From an uncultured Kangiellaceae bacterium (GTDB lineage: Bacteria; Pseudomonadota; Gammaproteobacteria; Enterobacterales; Kangiellaceae): a stretch of DNA of 64,000 bases. A model generated the notes under the pieces. That model made no database searches. It had not been told where the DNA came from and saw only the letters and a program-made list of their open reading frames with translations. Location of the stretch: the NCBI GenBank assembly GCA_905479925.1, contig CAJQOL010000013.1, forward strand, positions 62,001-126,000, given 5' to 3'. Shown piece after piece: positions 1,814 through 14,838 of this stretch (the first letter of the stretch is position 1; the number at the start of each line of letters is the position of its first letter). A program made the translations under genes and the position numbers.

Positions 1814-3013
1814 ATGAAAAATTCACCAATTCGTTCCGCCATTAGAGCCATCCTCATCTCCAGCGTTTTAGTTACAACCGCTAGTTTTGCCCATAACAAC
1901 AGTCCTAGTGATGCCAAGAGGCACATTATCGCGCCTCAACCTCAGGCGGCACCAAAAATTCAACTAGCAATACTATTAGACACCAGCGGTAGTATGGACG
2001 GACTGATTGATCAAACAAGAAATCAGCTATGGCAAGTAGTTAATGAATTTTCCTCAGCTAAACGCAATGGTGTTACCCCGACATTAGAAGTTGCACTGTT
2101 TGAATATGGAAACGATGGAAACTCCCGAGATACCGGGTTCGTTAGAATGCTAAACAATTTTACCGGTGAACTAGACAAAGTATCAGAAGGGTTATTCTCC
2201 CTTACCACTAATGGTGGTAGCGAATATTGTGGATTTGCCATTAAAACCGCCGTACACAGCCTAAACTGGAGCCAATCAAATAATGACATTAAAACCATCT
2301 TTATTGCAGGCAATGAGCCGTTTACCCAGGGACCAGTCAACTACAGAGAAGCTTTGCAATTGGCTTCAAGGAATGGAATAGCTGTAAATACAATCCATGC
2401 AGGCGACCACAAGGTAGGCATTGAAACGGGCTGGCAAGCAGGCGCACAGTTAGCAGGCGGTGACTATATGTCTATCGACGCAAATCGTCGCACCGTGCAT
2501 ATTATTAGTCCACAGGACAAACGTATTAGCGAACTGAACCAACAACTCAATAAAACCTATATTCCTTACGGTATTACTGGTTCTCGTAAAGCGAGAAGGC
2601 AACTAGAGCAAGATAAACGGAGCGAGAAAATATCTTCTGCACTGTTAGCTAAGAGAGCGAGAGCCAAGTCATCTTCATATTATAGCAACGACCAGTGGGA
2701 CTTAGTGGATGCGCTTGAAAAAGGCACCATCAATGAAGAGCAGTTAGTTGAATTGAAAGAATCAGAGTTACCTGAACCAATGCGAAATATGAACGACAAA
2801 CAAAAAAAGGATTACATCGCCGAAAAAACAAAACAACGTAAAGAGCTAAAAGAAGAGATAGAATCGCTGAGTCAATCGCGAGACAAATACATTGCTGAGC
2901 AGAAAGTGCAAGCCGTTGCTGCCGCGCCAACCATAAGCGATGCGCTAACAAAATCGATTAGAAAACAGGCAAAAGAAAAGCAGTATGAATTTGAGAAGAA
3001 AAACGGAAACTAA
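1814..3013 (+). CDS. Secreted von Willebrand factor type A domain protein
   Basis: Signal peptide; MIDAS-like motif LLDTSGSMDGL; RBS aaagga upstream. Confidence 0.85.
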   Translation: MKNSPIRSAIRAILISSVLVTTASFAHNNSPSDAKRHIIAPQPQAAPKIQLAILLDTSGSMDGLIDQTRNQLWQVVNEFSSAKRNGVTPTLEVALFEYGNDGNSRDTGFVRMLNNFTGELDKVSEGLFSLTTNGGSEYCGFAIKTAVHSLNWSQSNNDIKTIFIAGNEPFTQGPVNYREALQLASRNGIAVNTIHAGDHKVGIETGWQAGAQLAGGDYMSIDANRRTVHIISPQDKRISELNQQLNKTYIPYGITGSRKARRQLEQDKRSEKISSALLAKRARAKSSSYYSNDQWDLVDALEKGTINEEQLVELKESELPEPMRNMNDKQKKDYIAEKTKQRKELKEEIESLSQSRDKYIAEQKVQAVAAAPTISDALTKSIRKQAKEKQYEFEKKNGN

Positions 3014-3025
3014 AGGTTATCAGTT

Positions 3026-3047
3026 GGAGCCTGAGTACTTAGGCTCC
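3026..3047. terminator. Convergent-gene terminator hairpin
   Basis: GGAGCCT-GAGTACTT-AGGCTCC, perfect 7-bp stem between convergent genes. Confidence 0.6.
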
Positions 3048-3058
3048 ATCGTCTTTAG

Positions 3059-3445
3059 TTAAAGCACCGTTTTCTTTCTTCGTGCCAAATAAAAAACCCC
3101 GCTATTAAGAATAAAAAACCCAAAAAGTGAAGCTATCAGACTCCCCTTCAGAGCAAGAAATACGATAAATACTAAACTAATCACTGAGCACAAGAGAGAG
3201 CTATAAATGAGCAAGTAGCGAGCCCATCGGTGTTCATTAGCGAGTAAGTTAATAAACCAAAAACAAGCTAAGAAACAGAGTATAAAAAAGAAATAGCCAT
3301 TTATGGAGCCTCTAAATCCTCCGGCTTCTGCGGATACTAGCAAGAATAAAAAAGTGCCACAAATTCCAATCCAGGTGCCAACATTTTCATTGTGTAAAGA
3401 CGGTTCAGGAACAAAACGTCGATATTTAAAACCATATAGCTTCAT
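3059..3445 (-). CDS. Small multi-TM hypothetical protein
   Basis: 128-aa ORF with about four hydrophobic segments. Confidence 0.6.
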   Translation of the reverse strand: MKLYGFKYRRFVPEPSLHNENVGTWIGICGTFLFLLVSAEAGGFRGSINGYFFFILCFLACFWFINLLANEHRWARYLLIYSSLLCSVISLVFIVFLALKGSLIASLFGFFILNSGVFYLARRKKTVL

Positions 3446-3475
3446 TAAACCTCCCTTTCTTAAACATTAGAGTTT

Positions 3476-3754
3476 TTAAGACAAATATTTACCTAATACC
3501 TCCAGTATTTTTCTCTCTATTGAATTCTTAAGCGCTCGATACATAATGCCGAGGTTCAAAGTTAACTCAAGCTGGTTTTCAGACAGGGTTATTGAACCGT
3601 TAGCTCCCCTTCTTCTAAAGCTAAACTCAGTTGATGACTCCCACTCAGACCTAAATTCGAGATCACTCGCTAATTCTGTCATTAGCTGGTCGATCTTCAG
3701 CTTTAAGTCATCACTCTGCAATTTGTGGCTACGAATAATATTAATCTGCGCCAT
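3476..3754 (-). CDS. Polyhydroxyalkanoic acid system (PHA_gran_rgn-like) family protein
   Basis: Likely start is the internal MAQINIIRSHKLQ (ATG at 3754), 1 nt after the TGA of the upstream gene; pattern I-R-H ... FRRRGANGSI ... LNLGIMYRALK..IE resembles the family. Confidence 0.65.
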   Translation of the reverse strand: MAQINIIRSHKLQSDDLKLKIDQLMTELASDLEFRSEWESSTEFSFRRRGANGSITLSENQLELTLNLGIMYRALKNSIERKILEVLGKYLS

Positions 3755-3755
3755 A

Positions 3756-6700
3756 TCATTCCTTAGTATCTTGTGAAGCGCTTTTAGCTCTAGATCGCCT
3801 TTGAGCATTGGGCTTGGTAAGCTTTTCGATTGTCTTCAACTTGTCGCTAATTTCCGTCATTTTTTCATGAGTTCCCAAATCCAAATCCAACTTGCCACCC
3901 ATTAATTTAATTAAAGGATACAGCGTTTTTTCAAGAACTTTCGCCAATTCTTTACCAACATTAACATCACCATTATCCGCTTCGGCTAGTGTTGTAGACG
4001 ATTTTATCGAGGACCCTAACTGGTTAATCGCTTCGACAATTGCTCGGCTACTTTTCTCGTCAGATTGATGCTCATTAGTGACACTGGCATTTTTATCTGC
4101 CGATTCGATTTTGCGCGCGCTATCTGCATCCTGCCGCCAACGCTCTATACCGGTTACTAGGTCATTTAACTGCAAAACGATTTTCTGTTGCGCGTCAGCG
4201 TCATCACCACCCATAGATTTATTACGGACAAAGTCACTCTTAATTTTTTCCCAACGAGTTGAATCTTGTTCATCCATTTTCTCGCGAAGTTCAGCCAGTT
4301 TCAGTAGGTTGGCTTCAGTTCCACTTGTCAGCAACTGGGACTCACCCAAATAGTGGTCATCGATAATCCTATCAATTTCTTCATCGGTCATAATTGCGGA
4401 TATCTTTTCGCACATCTTATTCATATTTCTATAGGAGCCTTGCAACTTGAAAGCAGGCTCGGTTCTATAGTTATCATCTTGAGCGCTTGCAGCGATATAG
4501 GCTTTATTTACTCTCCAAACCACTTTCTGAATAGCCTTCATTTTTTGTAGAACAGAAACGATTTCTTTTATTTCTGCGCCGCCGTATTGATGAGAAAAGT
4601 CCGTGGTTGCCACATTTTTACCATTAGCCATATCAATAAATTTATAAACATCGCTCATCTCCCGTGTAGCTAATGGGGCTAGAATTGGATTTGAGGTTAG
4701 GGAGTTTTCAATATAGCTCAACTCAAAGACGTCTTCTTTTCCGCCGAGTACGTCACCCAAGTTGTAAATGTCAGCTCGATTGGCAAGCATGTCAGGAATT
4801 TGAAACGCCTCTCCGGTTTCCGTGTAAGGATTTCCGGCCATCACTACGGCAAATTTCTTTCCTCGCATATCGTAGGTTTTAGCCTTGTTCTGCCAAACAC
4901 CTTCAATCCGTCTAGTTCCATCACAGAGAGAAATAAACTTCTGTAAGAATTCACTATTGGTATGCTGAATATCATCTAGATAGAGCATGACATTGTTGCC
5001 CATTTCTAGAGCAAGATTTAGTTTTTCAAGCTCTTGGCGAGCCGCACTATTATCAGCTTGCTCGGGATCAACCGAGGTAACATTATGACCAATTACAGGA
5101 CAATTAATTTTCATAAAAATCAAACCCAAACGGTCTGCGACATACTCCATAAGAGTCGTCTTTCCGTAACCGGGTGGTGAGATCATCAACAGAAGCCCCA
5201 TTAAATCCGTTCGCTTCTTATCGCCGACGGTTCCAATTTGTTTTGCTAGATTGTCACCAATAAACGAAAGGTAAACTTCGTTAATTAGCTTATTTCTGAC
5301 AAAGGAAGACAGTGGCTTTGCCTTAAATTCATCAAGCCTCAAAAGCTCTCTTTGGTCAACAATGGTCGAGGTCCGCAGTTCATGATAAAGCTTATACTTT
5401 GGCAACATAATTTTTTCGTGATGTAGATTTCGTTCAATAAAGTCATCGAGCTGAATCATCAATCGACGTTCTTCTATTCTCTCGTGGGTACCGAGCAGCT
5501 TATCGATAGTCATTTGAATATCGACTTGTTTATCTGTACGGTCAATTCGTTGCTCGGCATTGAGGATACCAACCGCCTCACCAACGAAATTTTTCAGCTC
5601 AGACTTGGCTTGGGATTCCACATACGCATTTAACCAAGCTTCCGTAATCTGCCAGCGCTTACCTACAACACCGGAAATGTCTTTTAATACCTTAAGATAA
5701 TCATTCCATATATTGTTAGTTTTTAGGTGAGCAATAAAATCATTGCAAAGTAGTCTCGCGTACTTACTCGTCGCAAAACTAACCCTGTCTTGGGATAATT
5801 CCTCTACAAGGTATTGACTCGTACTAGCGATAAGATGTGGCTCGAACTCTAAGCCTTGCTGGTCAATAAAATCACTCACTTGTTTTTGAATATCGTTACT
5901 TAGGAGTTTTTTTTCTGTAGCGTTAGAAAATAATTTTTGCATCGAGTCAGCGGTTTTAGCCCTTTGCGGCCAAAGCATTTGCTGTTTTCCGGTTTGGCAG
6001 TTAGCCCAATATATACAACCAAGACCTCGAGCAAGCGGTGAGTACTTGAAAACTCCAGCGGTCTCATAAACCGGGACAAGTTGGTTCAAAATACGCGCCG
6101 TATCACGGTCATGAATACCTTTCTCATATCCCTCTTTAAAACGAGGGGACGCGTATTCACTCACCAAATTTGTCAACTTATCCAGATCGGCACAGGTAGA
6201 TGATAGAACCGACCAAGTAAGTCCCTCGGCGGCGCGTTCAGCTGCAAGCAAAATATTGTAAGCAAGGTATTCCGCTCGATATAACAACTCGGTCTCAGAA
6301 GGGACTGTCATGGCCCAACAATCTGATAACTCTTCAAGCTTTTTATCGGCTAAGGGTTCGAAGTAGTCGGTTCCCGTCAGCTTAATATAAAGCTCGTTAT
6401 CTTTCGGTAATATGGTTATATCTAAATCTTGTTTGTTTACTGCAAACTTATGTCTCGGTCCAAGTTTAATAACCTGGCCACCTTCTTCATAAAGGTCATT
6501 TTTGTCCCTTAACGAGCGAATTGCTTGTTGCTTTGCCGCTTTTAATTGAGAGTCTAAATCCTCCGCTTTTACACTATCATCATAGTGATGGAGTTGTTCG
6601 ATGATTTCACGAATCTTAACGACGAGACCGTCAGCCGCAAAAAATGCATTTAACTCATCCGGCTCCGAAAATCGCTTTGTGCGACGTTGGACGCTTTGTA

Positions 6701-9044
6701 ATATTCGCTCTCCAGAAGTGGCCAAAGACTGAGCCTTTCGTTGACGTTGCTCCACCAATCCTTGTTTATGTTCCTCAAAGGTCTCAAAAATCTCTTCTCT
6801 CTTAGCGAGGATGTCAGTCACAAAATCATCAAAGTCGCTGAACTCTCCTTCTAACTCTTCAAGTTGAATAAGCAGTCTAGCCGATTGCTGGTCACATTTT
6901 TCCGGTGTACTAGATAAGTTTAAAGCGTTATGAATACTTTGGTTAAGTAACTTTAATCGAGCGCCAAACTGTGCCGTTGCTTCGGCGCTTCCCATGTTTT
7001 TTCTTAAGTGTTCGAGCTCGGCTTTTTGTTGATTGAGCTTGCCGTATAATTCAGATACTGAATCGACGATACGAGTCTGTACCGTCGCATCATCGACTTT
7101 CAGTGTCGCCATTAATTCCGAAATTAAATCTAACCCTTCTGCGAGTGCTTCGACCTTCTCTAAGTGAGGTTGAAGTTCAGCATTAGACTTTGATTTTTCG
7201 GCATCTTTTGTCGCGGTTTCTAAGGTCTTATAGTAGCTGGCTAAGGCATCCTCCGAAGACAAAAACTCAACCGTTTGTTCTGACAAAGATTGTTCAACCG
7301 ATTCAATTTCTTGATCTAACTCTTCAATAACGGCGATATCAATATAACGATATTCCTTTATCGTCATTAGATGGCCTCGATAACCCCGTATCGAACTCAG
7401 ACCGTCAACAAACTCTTGTGGACTGTGCCAGCTTTGAGGCTCAATACTGCGCACTAACTCCTTGAGTGTTGCTTCAGCATCATTAAGGGCAATATCGGAC
7501 TGCTTTCGAATACTTTCGACTTTTTCATATTCATCAATAACCGATTCGGCTGTCTCGCCAATTTGCCTGATCAAGCTCGATATACTTGCCAACTCTTCAG
7601 AATCTAGCCAGAAATAAGTATCAAAAATCTTTTCACATTGACGTCCAAGCTCATTGTAGTGAGCCGCGGAAACGTCCTCTGCAGCTATCGACTTTGCAAT
7701 CCCATAGAGATCAGAAATACCTCTAACGAGTTCCGCATTGCCAATTTTTCCATAGAAGCTTTGGGAGGTGGGTTGGTTGCTCGCAAACACATCGGAAAAG
7801 TAAGGTGTTTGCCAAATTTGAATTGGATGCACTCGATTAGGCTCATCTTCCGCGTAGAAAATGATCATTTTTCCATCTTCGTAAATACCATAGCCATGAC
7901 CAAATTGCGGATTTTGCAGGGTTCGATTAATCAGGTTGTACGCATACAGGGCAATCACATTAGTTTCAGGCTGATAGAAAACATACATCACGTCTTCACC
8001 ATTAGGCGAACGAAGTGTTCTCTTATAAACTAAACCGCTTATGTTATCGTCAAATCGTTTGTGTTCACCATTAGTTAGATAGTAACCCCCTGGAAAGATA
8101 ATACCGTGATCTTCAGGTAAAGAAATACAGGCATCACCAATCTCATCAATTCTTAAAATCGACTGACTACTCTTATTAAAAACTAGGTAACGAAAGTTTT
8201 CTTCTTGGTAGGGTTTAATCTTGAGCAATATCATTTGCCCTAAGTCGCAAAAATGGAACTCCGCATCATCTAAAGATTGATTTCCGTCTTCAACGGCTTC
8301 AGAGTAAATACCTAGCCCGCTATTTGTATTGTCTTCGACTTTTATCGTAATGTCGCCGCGCGAGCAATCGACAAATAATGTATCTAAAATGTTTATATGT
8401 GGATTTCTACCATCGACAACATCGTCTCTGCTACAGGTAGTCCATACAAAATCCTGACTTGCCGGTAATTGAATATCCCTTTCGCCACGATTATCGATAT
8501 AATCAAGCTGCTTGCCATCACTCGATATCTGCCACCGGAAAACTCGAATGTCAGATAGTTTTTGTCCAATACTAAATGCCGCTAACAAACGTCCGTTTTT
8601 GACCACCAACTGAGATAGAGATGCATCCTTATAATAGGTATAAAGCTCGTTGAACTCCTCTTGAAAACGGGAATCCGCTAGAAATGAATTATCGATAGGA
8701 ATTCGTTTTAGATCATACTGTCCATCGTTATCTGAAAGCTGATACAGTGACAAAACATCTTCGATTTTTGTCTCTTTTTTTAGCCCGATAAATACATTAT
8801 AACCAAACAGAACTTTGTCATTAACAATGACCAAATCTTTCGCTTGGCAGTTATTTTCAGTTCGAAGCCGCATTCGACCAAGAACCTTCATTTCGGTCGT
8901 ACCAAACTCGCTCTGACGTTCGCTATTTATCTTACTAATGAGTCCATCGATGTTTCGCCCTTGCTCAGAAAGACGTTGACGAATGACGTCATAGGCTCCG
9001 CCTTCAGTAACGGCCTGTTCAACAATTGAAGTCTTCTCAACCAC
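3756..9044 (-). CDS. Giant (1762 aa) 'DNA repair ATPase'-type protein (DUF3686-like N-terminus, C-terminal AAA ATPase)
   Basis: Walker A PPGYGKTTL, Walker B NVMLYLDDIQ, MAGNPYTETGEAF sensor-like segment; long beta-rich N-terminus and central coiled coils. Confidence 0.85.
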   Translation of the reverse strand: MVEKTSIVEQAVTEGGAYDVIRQRLSEQGRNIDGLISKINSERQSEFGTTEMKVLGRMRLRTENNCQAKDLVIVNDKVLFGYNVFIGLKKETKIEDVLSLYQLSDNDGQYDLKRIPIDNSFLADSRFQEEFNELYTYYKDASLSQLVVKNGRLLAAFSIGQKLSDIRVFRWQISSDGKQLDYIDNRGERDIQLPASQDFVWTTCSRDDVVDGRNPHINILDTLFVDCSRGDITIKVEDNTNSGLGIYSEAVEDGNQSLDDAEFHFCDLGQMILLKIKPYQEENFRYLVFNKSSQSILRIDEIGDACISLPEDHGIIFPGGYYLTNGEHKRFDDNISGLVYKRTLRSPNGEDVMYVFYQPETNVIALYAYNLINRTLQNPQFGHGYGIYEDGKMIIFYAEDEPNRVHPIQIWQTPYFSDVFASNQPTSQSFYGKIGNAELVRGISDLYGIAKSIAAEDVSAAHYNELGRQCEKIFDTYFWLDSEELASISSLIRQIGETAESVIDEYEKVESIRKQSDIALNDAEATLKELVRSIEPQSWHSPQEFVDGLSSIRGYRGHLMTIKEYRYIDIAVIEELDQEIESVEQSLSEQTVEFLSSEDALASYYKTLETATKDAEKSKSNAELQPHLEKVEALAEGLDLISELMATLKVDDATVQTRIVDSVSELYGKLNQQKAELEHLRKNMGSAEATAQFGARLKLLNQSIHNALNLSSTPEKCDQQSARLLIQLEELEGEFSDFDDFVTDILAKREEIFETFEEHKQGLVEQRQRKAQSLATSGERILQSVQRRTKRFSEPDELNAFFAADGLVVKIREIIEQLHHYDDSVKAEDLDSQLKAAKQQAIRSLRDKNDLYEEGGQVIKLGPRHKFAVNKQDLDITILPKDNELYIKLTGTDYFEPLADKKLEELSDCWAMTVPSETELLYRAEYLAYNILLAAERAAEGLTWSVLSSTCADLDKLTNLVSEYASPRFKEGYEKGIHDRDTARILNQLVPVYETAGVFKYSPLARGLGCIYWANCQTGKQQMLWPQRAKTADSMQKLFSNATEKKLLSNDIQKQVSDFIDQQGLEFEPHLIASTSQYLVEELSQDRVSFATSKYARLLCNDFIAHLKTNNIWNDYLKVLKDISGVVGKRWQITEAWLNAYVESQAKSELKNFVGEAVGILNAEQRIDRTDKQVDIQMTIDKLLGTHERIEERRLMIQLDDFIERNLHHEKIMLPKYKLYHELRTSTIVDQRELLRLDEFKAKPLSSFVRNKLINEVYLSFIGDNLAKQIGTVGDKKRTDLMGLLLMISPPGYGKTTLMEYVADRLGLIFMKINCPVIGHNVTSVDPEQADNSAARQELEKLNLALEMGNNVMLYLDDIQHTNSEFLQKFISLCDGTRRIEGVWQNKAKTYDMRGKKFAVVMAGNPYTETGEAFQIPDMLANRADIYNLGDVLGGKEDVFELSYIENSLTSNPILAPLATREMSDVYKFIDMANGKNVATTDFSHQYGGAEIKEIVSVLQKMKAIQKVVWRVNKAYIAASAQDDNYRTEPAFKLQGSYRNMNKMCEKISAIMTDEEIDRIIDDHYLGESQLLTSGTEANLLKLAELREKMDEQDSTRWEKIKSDFVRNKSMGGDDADAQQKIVLQLNDLVTGIERWRQDADSARKIESADKNASVTNEHQSDEKSSRAIVEAINQLGSSIKSSTTLAEADNGDVNVGKELAKVLEKTLYPLIKLMGGKLDLDLGTHEKMTEISDKLKTIEKLTKPNAQRRSRAKSASQDTKE

Positions 9045-9189
9045 TTTGAATTCCCTGTTTTAAGTCAGACAGTAGGGCATTAGTAACCCTATGCTGGTGA
9101 TATTCTCTCGACCGTTCTATTTCATATGCTGAATGCTCTTAGCAAGGGCAAAGAAATGATTCGAGGTCGTCGCACTTAACCAACACCAA

Positions 9190-9209
9190 GGGGCGGAACG
9201 CTCCGTCCC
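9190..9209 (-). terminator. Intercistronic hairpin between flotillin and giant ATPase genes
   Basis: GGGGCGGA-ACGC-TCCGTCCC, 8-bp stem with one wobble; no clear U-tract on the minus strand. Confidence 0.4.
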
Positions 9210-9226
9210 TAGGCTTGGCTTGTTAC

Positions 9227-11215
9227 TTAACTATCAAGAGAGTTTTCGTTTTTGACGCTTTTAGAGGATTGATCCAGCTGAGGGACGTTTGCACCACCAA
9301 GTAGCTTTTCCATTAACGCTTGGATGATTGGGCTCTTTTCAATAAATCCATTAACCGCATTTCCGGCGCCCATTCCTTTAGCTAACTTATCAAAGTAGTC
9401 GCCCTGACCACCAACAATATCGATATTTGCGTTCTTAAGCGCTGATGCAAGAACGGATGCTTGGTCGCTAGAAATCTCTTTGTTAGCGTCAATCGAAGCT
9501 AATACTTCTTTCAATTGGTACTCAAGATTCAGTCTAAACTCTTCAAACTCTCTTGAAGCGGTATCCATGTTGTTCATCGCAGCAAATTTCTCTACCAACG
9601 CGTCAGCTTCAGCTTTACCTTTTTCTCGAACAACATCCGCCGAACTGATACCAATTTCCTTAGTTGCAACCGCTTCGGCTTTACCAAGTTCCTCGTTTCC
9701 TCGCGCTTCAGCTGTTAGCTTTTCTTCCAACACATTCGCTTCTGCAACACCTTCTTTCTGTAACGAAGCAGCCTTGGCTTCTTGAACTCTAGCTTGTGCA
9801 AAACCTTCTTTCTCAAAGGCATCAGCTTTCGCTTCCATAACATGCGCTTCAGCCAAACCACTAGCAGCCTGAGTTGCCTGATTTCCTTCGGCCAGTTTCT
9901 TGTCTGATTCTGCACGTTTAGCAGACGCTTCTAATTCAGCTTGCGCAATCAAATTGATTTCACGAGATTTATGAACCGCTTTTTGTTCTTCCGCTTCCGC
10001 CTGCTTAACCATTTGAACAAGGCTTTCCTGTGCAGTTGCTTCCGCCGCCAGAATTTTCACTTGCTTCGAACGATCGGCTTCTGAAACTTCCTGAACTTCT
10101 TTAATACGCTCTTCTTCTTCAGCGACTTTTTTCTCGACCGCAATCCTTTCACTAATAGTCTGAGAAATTATTTTCTTTTGCTCCTCAAGCGCCTTGTCTT
10201 TATCGATAACGGAAAGCTCTACTTCTCTTTCACGATTAACCGATTCCATTTGTTGAGCTCTAATAACTCGCTCTTTCTCAATGACAACAGCCTTTTCTCT
10301 GTTTTGCTCAGCAACTTCAATCTGACGCATCTTGACTTGCTCTCTGATCGCTAGCTGCTCATTAGTTTCAATTGCGGCTTGCTCGGCCTTGAGCCTTTCT
10401 TCCTCTTGCACTTTCTGTGTCTCTGCTTGCTCCCTTGCTCTTACTGTTTCAACTTCACGTTTTTGTTTTGACTCTGCATCGATTTGTTGACGTTCAAGGG
10501 CAAGCATCGATTCGCGCGTTTCTACATTCTTTTTGGTAATAGCCAGCTCTTCGTCTTTTTCTAATCGATTTGTTTCAACATTTTGGGTAGCGGTAATTTC
10601 AGTGATTTTCTTGATGCCTTGAGAGTCAAGTATATTGGTAGGATCAAGTTTAGCTTTTGGTGTTTGTTCTAAATAATCAATCGCTACATCTTCAAGAACG
10701 TAACCATTCATATCGTCGCCAATAACTTCGATTATTTTTTCGCGGAATTGAATTCTATTTTCAAATAAGTCCAAGAACATCATGTTCTTACCTACTGTTT
10801 TTAATGCTTCTGAGAATTTAGCATTAAAGAGTTCATTAACGGCTTCTTTATCTGAGGCACGATCTACGCCTATCGATTTTGCAACCCTAAGGACATCGTC
10901 TCTTGTTTCATTTACTCTGAGATAAAATGCAACGGTAATATCCGCTCTAAGGTTATCCTTACAGATCAATCCGTCATTCGCGCGACGGTCGATTTCTAAG
11001 GTTATCAGCGATATCTTCATAACCTCCATTTTATGAATAACCGGTAGCACCATACCACCGGTAAAATGAACCTTCGGTTTGGACGACATATCGTTTACGA
11101 TTAACGCATAACCTTGAGGTACTTTTTTATAAAATGCGCTGAACATAAAGGCTAGCGCAAATATTCCCATGAGAATAAATCCGCCGTAGGTTAAGATTGG
11201 CATTAAAGTTTCCAT
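9227..11215 (-). CDS. Flotillin / YqiK-type SPFH-domain protein
   Basis: N-terminal TM, SPFH-like region (KVPQGYALIVNDMSSKPKVHFTGGMVLPVIHKMEVM), long A/E/K/Q-rich flotillin coiled coil. Confidence 0.9.
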   Translation of the reverse strand: METLMPILTYGGFILMGIFALAFMFSAFYKKVPQGYALIVNDMSSKPKVHFTGGMVLPVIHKMEVMKISLITLEIDRRANDGLICKDNLRADITVAFYLRVNETRDDVLRVAKSIGVDRASDKEAVNELFNAKFSEALKTVGKNMMFLDLFENRIQFREKIIEVIGDDMNGYVLEDVAIDYLEQTPKAKLDPTNILDSQGIKKITEITATQNVETNRLEKDEELAITKKNVETRESMLALERQQIDAESKQKREVETVRAREQAETQKVQEEERLKAEQAAIETNEQLAIREQVKMRQIEVAEQNREKAVVIEKERVIRAQQMESVNREREVELSVIDKDKALEEQKKIISQTISERIAVEKKVAEEEERIKEVQEVSEADRSKQVKILAAEATAQESLVQMVKQAEAEEQKAVHKSREINLIAQAELEASAKRAESDKKLAEGNQATQAASGLAEAHVMEAKADAFEKEGFAQARVQEAKAASLQKEGVAEANVLEEKLTAEARGNEELGKAEAVATKEIGISSADVVREKGKAEADALVEKFAAMNNMDTASREFEEFRLNLEYQLKEVLASIDANKEISSDQASVLASALKNANIDIVGGQGDYFDKLAKGMGAGNAVNGFIEKSPIIQALMEKLLGGANVPQLDQSSKSVKNENSLDS

Positions 11216-11313
11216 TTTTTTGCTCTCCGAAAGTAAATTTTTATTGTCTAAATTTTATGTTGTTCTTGTCTTTGAATACTTTTGTATCAGAATATTACGA
11301 AATACAATGAATT

Positions 11314-11976
11314 TTATTCGCTTTTATTTTGCCTACGAAACTCTTCTTCAGTTACAACTAAGTAACTATCGTCGCTTTCATTGTGTTCTATAATAAATGC
11401 ATTATCGCCCTTGCTTAAGGTCAAATCGCCATGTGTCCGTACCTTGATAATTAGACTTGCGCCGTAATGGCTGCAGTCGGCCTCACCGAAACCACTATCT
11501 GCTCTGCTGGTTCTAATTCGGCAACCGGTACCCAACAATGAACGCCGTAACGGCTCTTGATGAATTCTTTTAAAAAGCCCCTTTAATGGCCGTATCATAG
11601 TTGCTGTTATAGGTATTGCCGCTAGCAAGCTACATACTGCGATTGCGACGTTTATGGCGAACTGCAGTATAGAAATAATGTCGGGAAAGGTTGGCATATA
11701 AATAGTCGCAAAGTAACAAACAAACCAACTATTTAACACGATAAGACTGATCACCACTGATATCGGTACACCAGTAAGCCCAAGCGTCGTTAACAGACCT
11801 GCTATGCCTCCTACTTGCGAGACATCAACATCAATTTCCAGGTCGACTCCAATGTCAAATGCATCGATGTCGAAAAGGCCAATAAGAGTAAGGAGCCAAA
11901 AACCTGAAACTACTACCAAGCCCGTAGAAAAAATGGCGGTAGGAAAAGAGCTTACATTGAGTAAGAATGCGTCCAT
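11314..11976 (-). CDS. YqiJ/NfeD-like OB-fold membrane protein
   Basis: Three or more TM segments, C-terminal beta-rich domain (LLGTGCRIRTSRADSGFGEADC); next to flotillin as in yqiJ-yqiK. Confidence 0.75.
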   Translation of the reverse strand: MDAFLLNVSSFPTAIFSTGLVVVSGFWLLTLIGLFDIDAFDIGVDLEIDVDVSQVGGIAGLLTTLGLTGVPISVVISLIVLNSWFVCYFATIYMPTFPDIISILQFAINVAIAVCSLLAAIPITATMIRPLKGLFKRIHQEPLRRSLLGTGCRIRTSRADSGFGEADCSHYGASLIIKVRTHGDLTLSKGDNAFIIEHNESDDSYLVVTEEEFRRQNKSE

Positions 11977-12142
11977 AACTGCTTCCTTTGTTTAATTATT
12001 AGTATTTGGTTAACAAATGGAGTCAAACTTATAACTCCTACACCATTCCCTGATAATGACATTTTGGACAAATAGTCGATTAAAATAGCGAAGATAGCGA
12101 GGTAAATCAATAACGATTGTCACATCAGTGAATATTTATACA

Positions 12143-12478
12143 CTATTCTTCTTTGTTCATGACAAAATCGATGATTTCCTTTGCCGCTTTTTCTTTTATA
12201 GATAATTTGTCGACAACATCTAGCTCGTAGTGCTTAGCAAGAATCTGATAGTCGTCTTCTGTCAGCGAAATGGTCAATCGCGGCCTCACTGGCTTTTTGC
12301 TCGGCAGGCCCAAAATCTTTCTCATTTGGTCTGATGGTGACAAATCGTTTTGGATAGCTGTCATCTTCAAACGTTTTTGGGCTTCGGTCGAAATATCAAA
12401 AGCAACTTGGGTAGCCCTAATCGCCTTTTTTTCGTTTTGCCAACGTTGTGGCTGTTTTGCTTTCATGGAAGAACTCAA
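12143..12478 (-). CDS. Small protein with two candidate ribbon-helix-helix-like repeats
   Basis: VAFDISTEAQKRLKMTAIQNDLSPSDQMRKIL and LTISLTEDDYQILAKHYELDVVDKLSIKEKAAKEII both read as beta-helix-helix. Confidence 0.55.
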   Translation of the reverse strand: MSSSMKAKQPQRWQNEKKAIRATQVAFDISTEAQKRLKMTAIQNDLSPSDQMRKILGLPSKKPVRPRLTISLTEDDYQILAKHYELDVVDKLSIKEKAAKEIIDFVMNKEE

Positions 12479-12554
12479 TGATTTAATTCACAAAATGCTG
12501 GTAACTGACAAAGCTCTTTTTGAGGCGCTAATGATACTAGCGCCTCAGAAAAAC

Positions 12555-13238
12555 CTATTTTTTCTTCAATCTAGCTAATACGCTTTCAGCGGAGTGTTTG
12601 TCCTTAATAATTCCAGAAGCTTTAAGCTTCCCATCAAGATCATCGCCTTCAAGTTCCTTTTTAAGTTCCATACCAGCTTCCAGTCGATCTTGCTCACTTT
12701 GCTGTTTTTGTTTAATCCTTTCAAGGGATTCACGCGCTGATCCAATTGCTGAGTCGTTATTGGTGACCGTTTGTGTCACCGACTTAGTCGCCTGTTGAAC
12801 CGATTCTCGAGTTTTGACCATAGCCAACTCTCTTTCGTGCTCGGCAATAATTTTTTCAGCTTCTTGAATTTGTGACTTTAGAATCTCAACATTTTTCTCG
12901 TAGTTGGCTAACTCCTCAGCCTGCGACTCGGCTTTAGCTTCCAGCTTAGCAATTTTCTCCGCCACTTCTAGCGCTAAGCTTTCATTGTCTTGTCCTAACG
13001 CTTCAACCGCATACCCCTCATTTTCAGATATTTCTGATTTGACTGAATCTAGACGCCTCTCTGCAGCCATCTTTTTAGCAACGATTTCAGTCAAACCGCT
13101 TTTAGCTTCCGCCAAATTTTCTTTAGATTCATGGATTTCCTGTTCAAAAATACGTAACGACTGTGTATCAACCACTGCCTCACCTATTTCCCTTGCGCTG
13201 CCTCTAATTGCGGTTAATAATTTAGTGATAATATTCAT
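12555..13238 (-). CDS. PspA/IM30 family protein
   Basis: Long alpha-helical protein, IITKLLTAIRGSAREIGEAVVDTQSLRIFEQEIHESKENL... Confidence 0.85.
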   Translation of the reverse strand: MNIITKLLTAIRGSAREIGEAVVDTQSLRIFEQEIHESKENLAEAKSGLTEIVAKKMAAERRLDSVKSEISENEGYAVEALGQDNESLALEVAEKIAKLEAKAESQAEELANYEKNVEILKSQIQEAEKIIAEHERELAMVKTRESVQQATKSVTQTVTNNDSAIGSARESLERIKQKQQSEQDRLEAGMELKKELEGDDLDGKLKASGIIKDKHSAESVLARLKKK

Positions 13239-13284
13239 TCATGCTCTCCTTTTGATTATCCATTTTGCCTTATATAAGGCCTTT

Positions 13285-13692
13285 CTATTTAATAAACTCT
13301 TCTAATGCCTGTAAGCTATCAATTGAATTCTGTGCCAGGGTCACTAGTTCATCGGAAATACTTTCTAACGTCGAACCTCGGGATAGAGCGCCAAAAATAA
13401 CGTAATAATCCTCTATAACAGCAAAAGCGCTTAACGGCATTGGCACATTTAGTTCCAAAAGATACTGATTCATTTGATTCTCTTTATCGGTATGAATTTC
13501 ATCTTTACGAAATAGATAAGATATACAGAGTATTTGAGTATCTGTAACAGTTATGAATATCGGCATTTCTTCCAATTGCGAAACTTCTACTCTTAGAACA
13601 TCTTGCTCGCCTTGAATCCTCAAACAGCTAAAGGTATGTCCTTTAAACTGAAAGCCAGTAATTTGATTAGTAAGTTGTTGAATTGATGTCAC
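13285..13692 (-). CDS. DUF2170 / YjfI-like protein
   Basis: Start re-assigned to GTG at 13692 with SD GGAGAGG; the ORF-track ATG at 13761 lies upstream of the predicted -10 element. Confidence 0.7.
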   Translation of the reverse strand: MTSIQQLTNQITGFQFKGHTFSCLRIQGEQDVLRVEVSQLEEMPIFITVTDTQILCISYLFRKDEIHTDKENQMNQYLLELNVPMPLSAFAVIEDYYVIFGALSRGSTLESISDELVTLAQNSIDSLQALEEFIK

Positions 13693-13730: not shown

Positions 13731-13743
13731 GACATAATATGTC
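13731..13743. promoter_or_regulatory. Operator-like site 2, GACATAATATGTC
   Basis: Near-palindrome; exact reverse complement of site 13762-13774; lies around the predicted transcription start. Confidence 0.65.
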
Positions 13744-13747
13744 ATAC

Positions 13748-13776
13748 AGAATATCAATCACGACATATTATGTCAA
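13748..13776 (-). promoter_or_regulatory. Sigma70-type promoter of the YjfI-PspA-flotillin-ATPase operon
   Basis: TTGACA (13776-13771) - 17 nt - TATTCT (13753-13748). Confidence 0.75.
13762..13774. promoter_or_regulatory. Operator-like site 1, GACATATTATGTC
   Basis: Overlaps the -35 hexamer; inverted copy of 13731-13743. Confidence 0.65.
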
Positions 13777-13929
13777 GGTTATTTTCTAAGCCTCTATTTT
13801 AAAATTGGAGCCACCAATCAGATATAGCAGAAGCCCCACATAGTGGCATTGAGTTCAAAGGCCTTCAATGATACGGTTGAAGTTGGAGCAAATACGAATC
13901 AGCAAAATAAACAAATTGGAGAAGCGGAC

Positions 13930-14838
13930 ATGAAAACAATCAAACAGCTCGGTATTTTATTATCGTGCTTAAGTCTATCTTTATTAGCTACGGCGGAGGA
14001 GGCTAAAAAGCCTGAATTAGGTTTCGCAACGACCGAGGTTGCCCCTGGTATCTATATGCTCTCTGGCGTAGGTGGTTTCACAGGCGGTAACATAGGTTTG
14101 TCAATTGGTGATGACGGCGTTGTTATGATTGACGACTCTATGCCACCACTCTTGGACAAAATGAAAGCCGCGGTCAAAAGCATAACAAATAAGCCGGTTG
14201 ATTTTCTCATTAATACTCACGTACATGGTGACCATACGGGTAACAATAAGAGCATGGGCGAAGATGGCACACGCATTGTTGCCCATGATAACTTACGTAT
14301 CAATATGTTAGTAAAAGGACTACAAACGGCGGAAGGCAAAAAGCCAATGCCCAAAGCAGCTCTTCCGGTTATTACCTTTTCTCATGCGATGAGTTTTCAC
14401 CTTAATGGTGAAGATGCTCGTATTTTTCATGTTGCTAACGCGCATACCGATGGCGATGCGGTAATCCATTATAAAAATGCCAACGTTATTCATACTGGAG
14501 ATACTTTTTTCAATGGTATGTTTCCCTACATCGACATTAATAACGGCGGAAACGTAGATGGTTATATAGCGGCTCAAGCTAAAATGATTAGTGTCGCAAA
14601 TGCTGATACGAAAATTATTCCGGGACACGGACCACTATCAAACGTTGCTGAACTTAAAACCTCGCTGGCTATGTTAAAAGATAGCAGAGCGATAATTGCT
14701 AAACTTATTAAACAAGGCAAAACAGAGCAGCAAGTTATCGATGAAAACCCTTTGCAGAAATATCATAAAGATTGGAATTGGGGATTTATTACCACTGAAA
14801 AAATGACCCGGCAAGTCTACAAAAGCCTTAAGCAGTAA
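13930..14838 (+). CDS. Secreted metallo-beta-lactamase-fold hydrolase
   Basis: ATG at 13930 with ggagaag upstream and a signal peptide; HVHGDHTGNN, HTGDTFF, IPGHGP motifs. Confidence 0.88.
   Translation: MKTIKQLGILLSCLSLSLLATAEEAKKPELGFATTEVAPGIYMLSGVGGFTGGNIGLSIGDDGVVMIDDSMPPLLDKMKAAVKSITNKPVDFLINTHVHGDHTGNNKSMGEDGTRIVAHDNLRINMLVKGLQTAEGKKPMPKAALPVITFSHAMSFHLNGEDARIFHVANAHTDGDAVIHYKNANVIHTGDTFFNGMFPYIDINNGGNVDGYIAAQAKMISVANADTKIIPGHGPLSNVAELKTSLAMLKDSRAIIAKLIKQGKTEQQVIDENPLQKYHKDWNWGFITTEKMTRQVYKSLKQ

Follow-up and report, generated by a model that had tools for sequence, protein, structure and literature searches.

The question raised by this locus is what a PspA-type protein, a flotillin and a giant AAA ATPase do together in one operon, and what switches that operon on. 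The locus lies in a 64,000-nt stretch of DNA from an uncultured Kangiellaceae bacterium (contig CAJQOL010000013.1; hereafter the window), whose 4.49-Mb genome, designated G000, has a completeness of 95%. Seven consecutive open reading frames (ORFs) occupy 3476-13692 of its minus strand in the order yjfI-pspA-dRHH-yqiJ-flotillin-ATPase-PHA_gran_rgn, where dRHH stands for a tandem ribbon-helix-helix (RHH) protein, and this gene order is kept across 109 related loci. An earlier note, made from the sequence of this DNA, had listed the seven ORFs; all of them were found again, mostly with Pfam or profile support, and we take them to form a real operon with a possible eighth ORF. We consider it fairly probable that this is a self-regulated envelope-stress operon, combining repression by dRHH with a membrane machine made of PspA, flotillin, YqiJ and the AAA+ protein.

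Paired operators at the yjfI promoter accompany dRHH

The earlier note had placed one strong promoter ahead of the operon. A promoter, TTGACA-17-TATTCT, is indeed present upstream of yjfI; its consensus score is not significant alone (20 matches seen versus 36 expected in shuffles). Its -35 hexamer is embedded in a conserved operator, the 13-bp palindrome GACATAnTATGTC, of which the 4.49-Mb genome holds exactly two copies, both at the yjfI promoter (control, 0); in 14 of the 21 dRHH loci TTGACA and the operator are fused. A literature search that covered few subscription journals returned nothing relevant on the GACATAnTATGTC operator sequence.

The operator follows the dRHH gene across relatives. 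When loci with core genes beginning at a contig edge are set aside, 98 remain; at these, with up to one mismatch allowed, a GACATAnTATGTC site occurred in 19/19 loci with dRHH versus 9/79 without it, with 45 sites observed in all and 2 in shuffled sequence. Of the nine dRHH-less exceptions, six (L017, L107, L109, L111, L113 and L118) belong to genomes with a dRHH gene at another place; the other three are L085, L096 and L020, the last of which appears to be the same organism as L113. Among 32 hand-picked genomes, exact GACATAnTATGTC was present in 15 of the 16 with dRHH and in none of the 16 without, the sixteenth dRHH genome having one-mismatch copies. An unbiased survey of 369 genomes sampled evenly across the class identified GACATAnTATGTC in 9/13 genomes with dRHH versus 9/356 without, and at least two sites in 7/13 versus 0/356. 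Two of the four dRHH genomes missed in this survey (G075 and G203) carry a variant of the operator pair, CCCATAnTATGTC, at the corresponding position; this variant is common to two same-genus genomes (L175 and L176), which suggests coevolution of repressor and operator. These counts make a strong case that dRHH co-occurs with GACATAnTATGTC at its own promoter, and we propose that dRHH is a repressor of its own operon, repression rather than activation being the effect that we infer.

What such a repressor would control can be gauged from related genomes. Four of them carry 3-10 GACATAnTATGTC sites, and among the genes adjoining these sites are flotillin operons, canonical pspA-pspC, a solo pspA, fxsA and nhaA; NfeD and SPFH genes together adjoin sites in two genomes, another SPFH gene does so once, and htpX does so in two genomes. 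This content (pspA-pspC, SPFH/NfeD, htpX, nhaA) points to an envelope-stress regulon. It is the strongest independent sign that the system answers membrane stress, and it supports that side of the membrane-remodeling or lipid-stress machine proposed in the earlier note.

The ATPase, its partners and a proteolytic alternative

At least 575 loci encoding the ATPase family were found, of which we surveyed 109, i.e., the 80 best named matches and 29 further loci, with a few organisms present twice (L020/L113 and L021/L116). Within the 98 of these with 4.5 kb or more of sequence upstream of the ATPase, its neighbors were flotillin in 97, YqiJ in 95, PspA in 66, YjfI in 60, dRHH in 21 and PHA_gran in 7. 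The neighborhood conservation with SPFH and PspA genes that the earlier note would have expected of the giant ATPase is therefore present, being strong for flotillin and YqiJ and frequent for PspA and YjfI, and the counts for the first two mark ATPase-flotillin-YqiJ as the fixed unit. The family itself is patchy, occurring in 10/369 genomes of the class and in 18/61 near relatives.

The AAA+ core of the protein has Walker A (PPGYGKTT) and Walker B (LYLDD) motifs near residues 1285-1430, both invariant in 10 divergent homologs. A model of this core was of medium quality (predicted local distance difference test score, pLDDT, 73) and showed a likeness to NorQ, CbbQ and dynein modules that was not significant. 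Profiles of the ATPase, dRHH and PHA_gran each found no relatives among PDB sequences. Pfam labels DUF3686 "ATPase involved in DNA repair"; the neighborhood gives this label no support. At some loci there are accessory genes for phospholipase D (PLD), a TFIIB-type zinc ribbon and EF-hand-like small proteins, and at L019 (4655-5865) two ORFs lie right behind the ATPase, one of them PAAR-like by eye only.

A rhomboid protease (PF01694, 1.6e-17) with invariant catalytic positions (HxxxN, GAS and H) was identified in 32/109 loci, in 31 of them on the operon strand and either as part of the operon or no more than about 100 bp away from it, at two different operon positions. Such linkage would suit a bacterial SPFH-rhomboid-AAA proteolytic hub, comparable to SLP2-PARL-YME1L, in which membrane-protein quality control is the main task and PspA an accessory. 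It would also suit this reading that flotillin and YqiJ accompany the ATPase almost without exception while PspA and YjfI do so in about two thirds of the loci, that htpX falls in the same regulon, and that the SPY hub has been described (PMC5438985). However, the ATPase has no recognized peptidase domain, and the rhomboid is absent from the window operon and from most loci, so that we hold a hub of this kind to be possible but clearly the less likely account. In same-genus relatives the rhomboid gene is intact in L104 (1782-2348) and truncated in L105 (13408-13689), which, with its absence from the window, gives the appearance of gene loss. A very weak similarity to a rhomboid in the dRHH-yqiJ gap of the window was considered as a remnant, and we make no claim for it.

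The candidate repressor weighed

We regard dRHH as a probable tandem RHH protein. Searches against Pfam gave a match to RHH_10 only at an E-value of 0.05, and the AlphaFold model (predicted template modeling score, pTM, 0.52) has helices at residues 27-39, 44-51, 70-79 and 87-105, forming two helix-helix units. In the monomer model a candidate RHH strand segment precedes each helix pair, with no strand assigned by DSSP, and Foldseek returned many RHH proteins among its matches, none of them significant alone. A second, more distant dRHH paralog is present in the window's genome (L144, G000:C9:377-634) and also in G764 and G770.

Several observations weigh against a self-regulated envelope-stress operon. 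Neither the dRHH model nor that of the AAA core has a Foldseek match below an E-value of 0.001; the counts linking dRHH to the operator include related genomes with no correction for phylogeny; the 80 named loci of the survey have the highest similarity to the window; about a third of the ATPase loci have neither PspA nor YjfI close by; and several operators in G789 precede hydrolases and genes without a clear membrane-stress role. In addition, dRHH is encoded in two genomes of the unbiased survey (G233 and G284) that lack a nearby yjfI and in which no operator was found. These two genomes would be accommodated if a different factor read the operators and dRHH were otherwise employed, e.g., as a non-regulatory, partner-binding RHH protein, and it also favors that explanation that dRHH is connected to the operators through co-occurrence only. 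Yet the two track each other across many families, even where they lie in separate parts of the genome, and the variant in G075 and G203 is shared within that dRHH lineage, for which reasons we judge a different factor improbable.

The loci that lack dRHH appear to have an alternative. An N-terminal, basic extension was seen in 37/39 YjfI proteins of dRHH-less loci versus 0/21 in dRHH loci, the window's YjfI aligning as a short form with no such extension. At the promoters of the 37 long-YjfI loci the motif TYACATGTRA was present in 34, 27 of them with two copies, and it was found in none of the dRHH loci. Five of six long-YjfI genomes contained paired TYACATGTRA, each a single time and at a position agreeing with the yjfI promoter; the pair was present in 0/26 others. 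The basic extension together with the paired motif suggests that YjfI itself became a DNA-binding repressor in these loci. A MazE-like assignment of the extension was rejected, as it came from one weak match (E-value 0.045). In P. aeruginosa, loss of BacA, which corresponds to YjfI, raises the other Bac proteins (PMC10948618), an effect that fits negative autoregulation by YjfI.

A proposed mechanism

For the self-regulated operon with dRHH as its repressor, we propose that dRHH binds both GACATAnTATGTC sites, of which the first covers the -35 and the second lies beside the -10, and so represses the yjfI promoter until membrane damage relieves the repression. The CesT-like YjfI, encoded beside PspA, would likely couple the state of PspA to the repressor. 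Once derepressed, the operon would supply PspA to coat and reseal the inner membrane, and a flotillin/YqiJ scaffold that may gather the damaged membrane patch. At this scaffold the giant MoxR/dynein-like AAA+ protein, with its reported beta-propeller and coiled-coil parts, could use ATP to strip or remodel proteins, either PspA filaments or misfolded membrane proteins; the action of the AAA protein on PspA or flotillin, suggested in the earlier note, is presumed in this scheme. Relatives may add a rhomboid protease or a phospholipase D to the machine.

Two further explanations can be dealt with briefly. An anti-phage defense operon might be suspected from the very large ATPase and from the PLD-type accessory with its distant DrmC-like matches, but the window proteins gave no convincing PADLOC match and the shared operator ties the operon to membrane-stress genes, which leaves defense very unlikely. 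The family name of the last gene might suggest a polyhydroxyalkanoate (PHA) granule-related system, backed by its PF09650 and TIGR02610 matches; we give this almost no credence, since no PHA synthase was found in the window genome with the PhaC_N profile, only G764 of the seven genomes in which the gene follows the ATPase (G000, G751, G754, G758, G761, G764 and G770) has PhaC, and this placement occurs only in the window's family, in contrast to the widespread operon. Seven surveyed loci have this arrangement, two of them (L020 and L113) apparently from a single organism, and the gene at 3476..3754 is the single PHA_gran_rgn gene of the window genome. The PHA label thus misleads, and we reject the PHA-granule-type function given in the earlier note on account of the missing PhaC.

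Operon layout and neighboring genes

The features of the operon and its promoter are collected in Table 1. Neither the flotillin nor the YqiJ protein of the window has a Pfam match of its own, and Band_7 was matched in 2/18 flotillin homologs; of the two, YqiJ is assigned less firmly. The hairpin next to pspA has no U-run on the operon strand and is possibly an mRNA-stabilizing or processing element. The PHA_gran_rgn gene likely starts at an ATG at 3754, 1 nt past the ATPase stop, and the eighth ORF had no homolog in the 109 related loci.

Table 1. Features of the yjfI-PHA_gran_rgn operon in the window
Feature	Position	Strand	Basis and remarks
Sigma-70 promoter TTGACA-17-TATTCT, extended TG	13748..13776	minus	Consensus match
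Putative operator O1, GACATAATATGTC	13762..13774	minus	Overlaps -35 hexamer (TTGACATAATATGTC)
Putative operator O2, GACATATTATGTC	13731..13743	minus	Shortly after -10, 31 bp from O1
yjfI-like gene (DUF2170, CesT/Tir-like fold)	13285..13692	minus	PF09938 1.5e-36; likely GTG start 13692
pspA/yjfJ-type gene (ESCRT-III-like membrane remodeling protein)	12555..13238	minus	PF04012 PspA_IM30 1.3e-35
Hairpin just 3' of pspA stop	12517..12551	minus	RNA fold -23.9 kcal/mol, z -4.45
dRHH (tandem ribbon-helix-helix), 107 aa	12143..12466	minus	Likely ATG start 12466
YqiJ/YuaF-like membrane protein	11314..11976	minus	hhalign to E. coli YqiJ 84%, E 7.6e-6
Flotillin/YqiK-family SPFH scaffold, long coiled coil, 662 aa	9227..11215	minus	hhalign to E. 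coli YqiK 99.9%, E 9e-34
ATPase, 1762 aa	3756..9044	minus	DUF3686 9.6e-188 (residues 36-478), DUF7902, AAA_5 (Pfam)
PHA_gran_rgn-family protein, 92 aa	3476..3754	minus	PF09650 1e-18; also TIGR02610 match
Possible eighth gene, 128-aa membrane ORF	3059..3445	minus	30 bp downstream of PHA_gran_rgn gene

On the downstream side, a gene for a VWA-domain protein (1814-3013, plus strand) runs toward the end of the operon, and a hairpin terminator lies at 3025-3048. Upstream, a divergent gene for a protein of metallo-beta-lactamase fold (13843-14838, plus strand) faces the yjfI promoter and might share its operators; homologs of it occur near the operon in 7 surveyed loci, mostly of the window's family.

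Relation to known systems

The earlier note had called the system under-described, which is too strong: in its main text, Ravi et al. 2024 (PMC11237479) describe operons joining YjfI-PspA, flotillin, a propeller/coiled-coil AAA+ protein and YqiJ, note a PLD partner, and propose roles in assembling membrane-linked complexes, a similar function. The window has the same core genes as their CesT/Tir-PspA-flotillin-AAA-YqiJ operon and is a member of that type. The AAA+ protein described there has an N-terminal beta-propeller and coiled coil; in the window ATPase, DUF3686 and DUF7902 are present on the N-terminal side. An RHH regulator appears in that main text only as the last gene of PspA-linked operons of a spermine-synthase group, and we found in it no operator, regulon, rhomboid or PHA_gran_rgn member.

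Other systems share parts of the operon. The P. aeruginosa Bac operon has the same pair, BacA being YjfI and BacB PspA; its authors propose a sigma-54 site (PMC10948618), while the loci surveyed here, the P. aeruginosa bac operon not among them, show paired palindromes at yjfI. The canonical Psp system (PspF-PspABC) has the effector PspA in common with the window, and canonical pspA-pspC genes in G139 carry the same operator. However, window 3059-13692 has no gene for PspF, PspB or PspC, and where canonical Psp uses a sigma-54 activator the window operon apparently uses an RHH protein instead. The yqiJ-yqiK and yjfI-yjfJ pairs were, as the earlier note said, known already: in E. coli they are homologous to the window genes and lie at two separate loci without the AAA+ or dRHH genes, and E. 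coli yjfI has neither the GACATAnTATGTC nor the TYACATGTRA operator. HflKC-FtsH, prohibitin-m-AAA and SLP2-PARL-YME1L share with the operon an SPFH scaffold and an AAA+ protein, and at some loci a rhomboid; they differ in that the window AAA+ protein is very large, weakly MoxR/dynein-like, without a recognized protease domain and connected to the scaffold by gene linkage only.

What is new beyond the known core is the candidate repressor dRHH, the GACATAnTATGTC operators and their regulon, the YjfI/TYACATGTRA alternative and the operonic rhomboid; dRHH as a repressor, the promoter operators and the rhomboid in relatives' operons had all escaped the earlier note. To our knowledge, the control of PspA-type systems without PspF is largely unknown. 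More tentatively, there may be a PspF-independent envelope-stress circuit in many Proteobacteria, in which dRHH, or a DNA-binding YjfI N-terminus in its place, would sense PspA engagement via YjfI and switch on a flotillin-AAA+ machine, often with a rhomboid, paralleling the mitochondrial SPFH-rhomboid-AAA hub. PspF-independent control becomes directly testable through the candidate repressor with its 13-bp operator, through the regulon predicted for it and through the second, exchangeable pair of repressor and operator, and the repeated linkage of flotillin, giant AAA+ protein and rhomboid offers a bacterial handle on SPFH-AAA-protease hubs.

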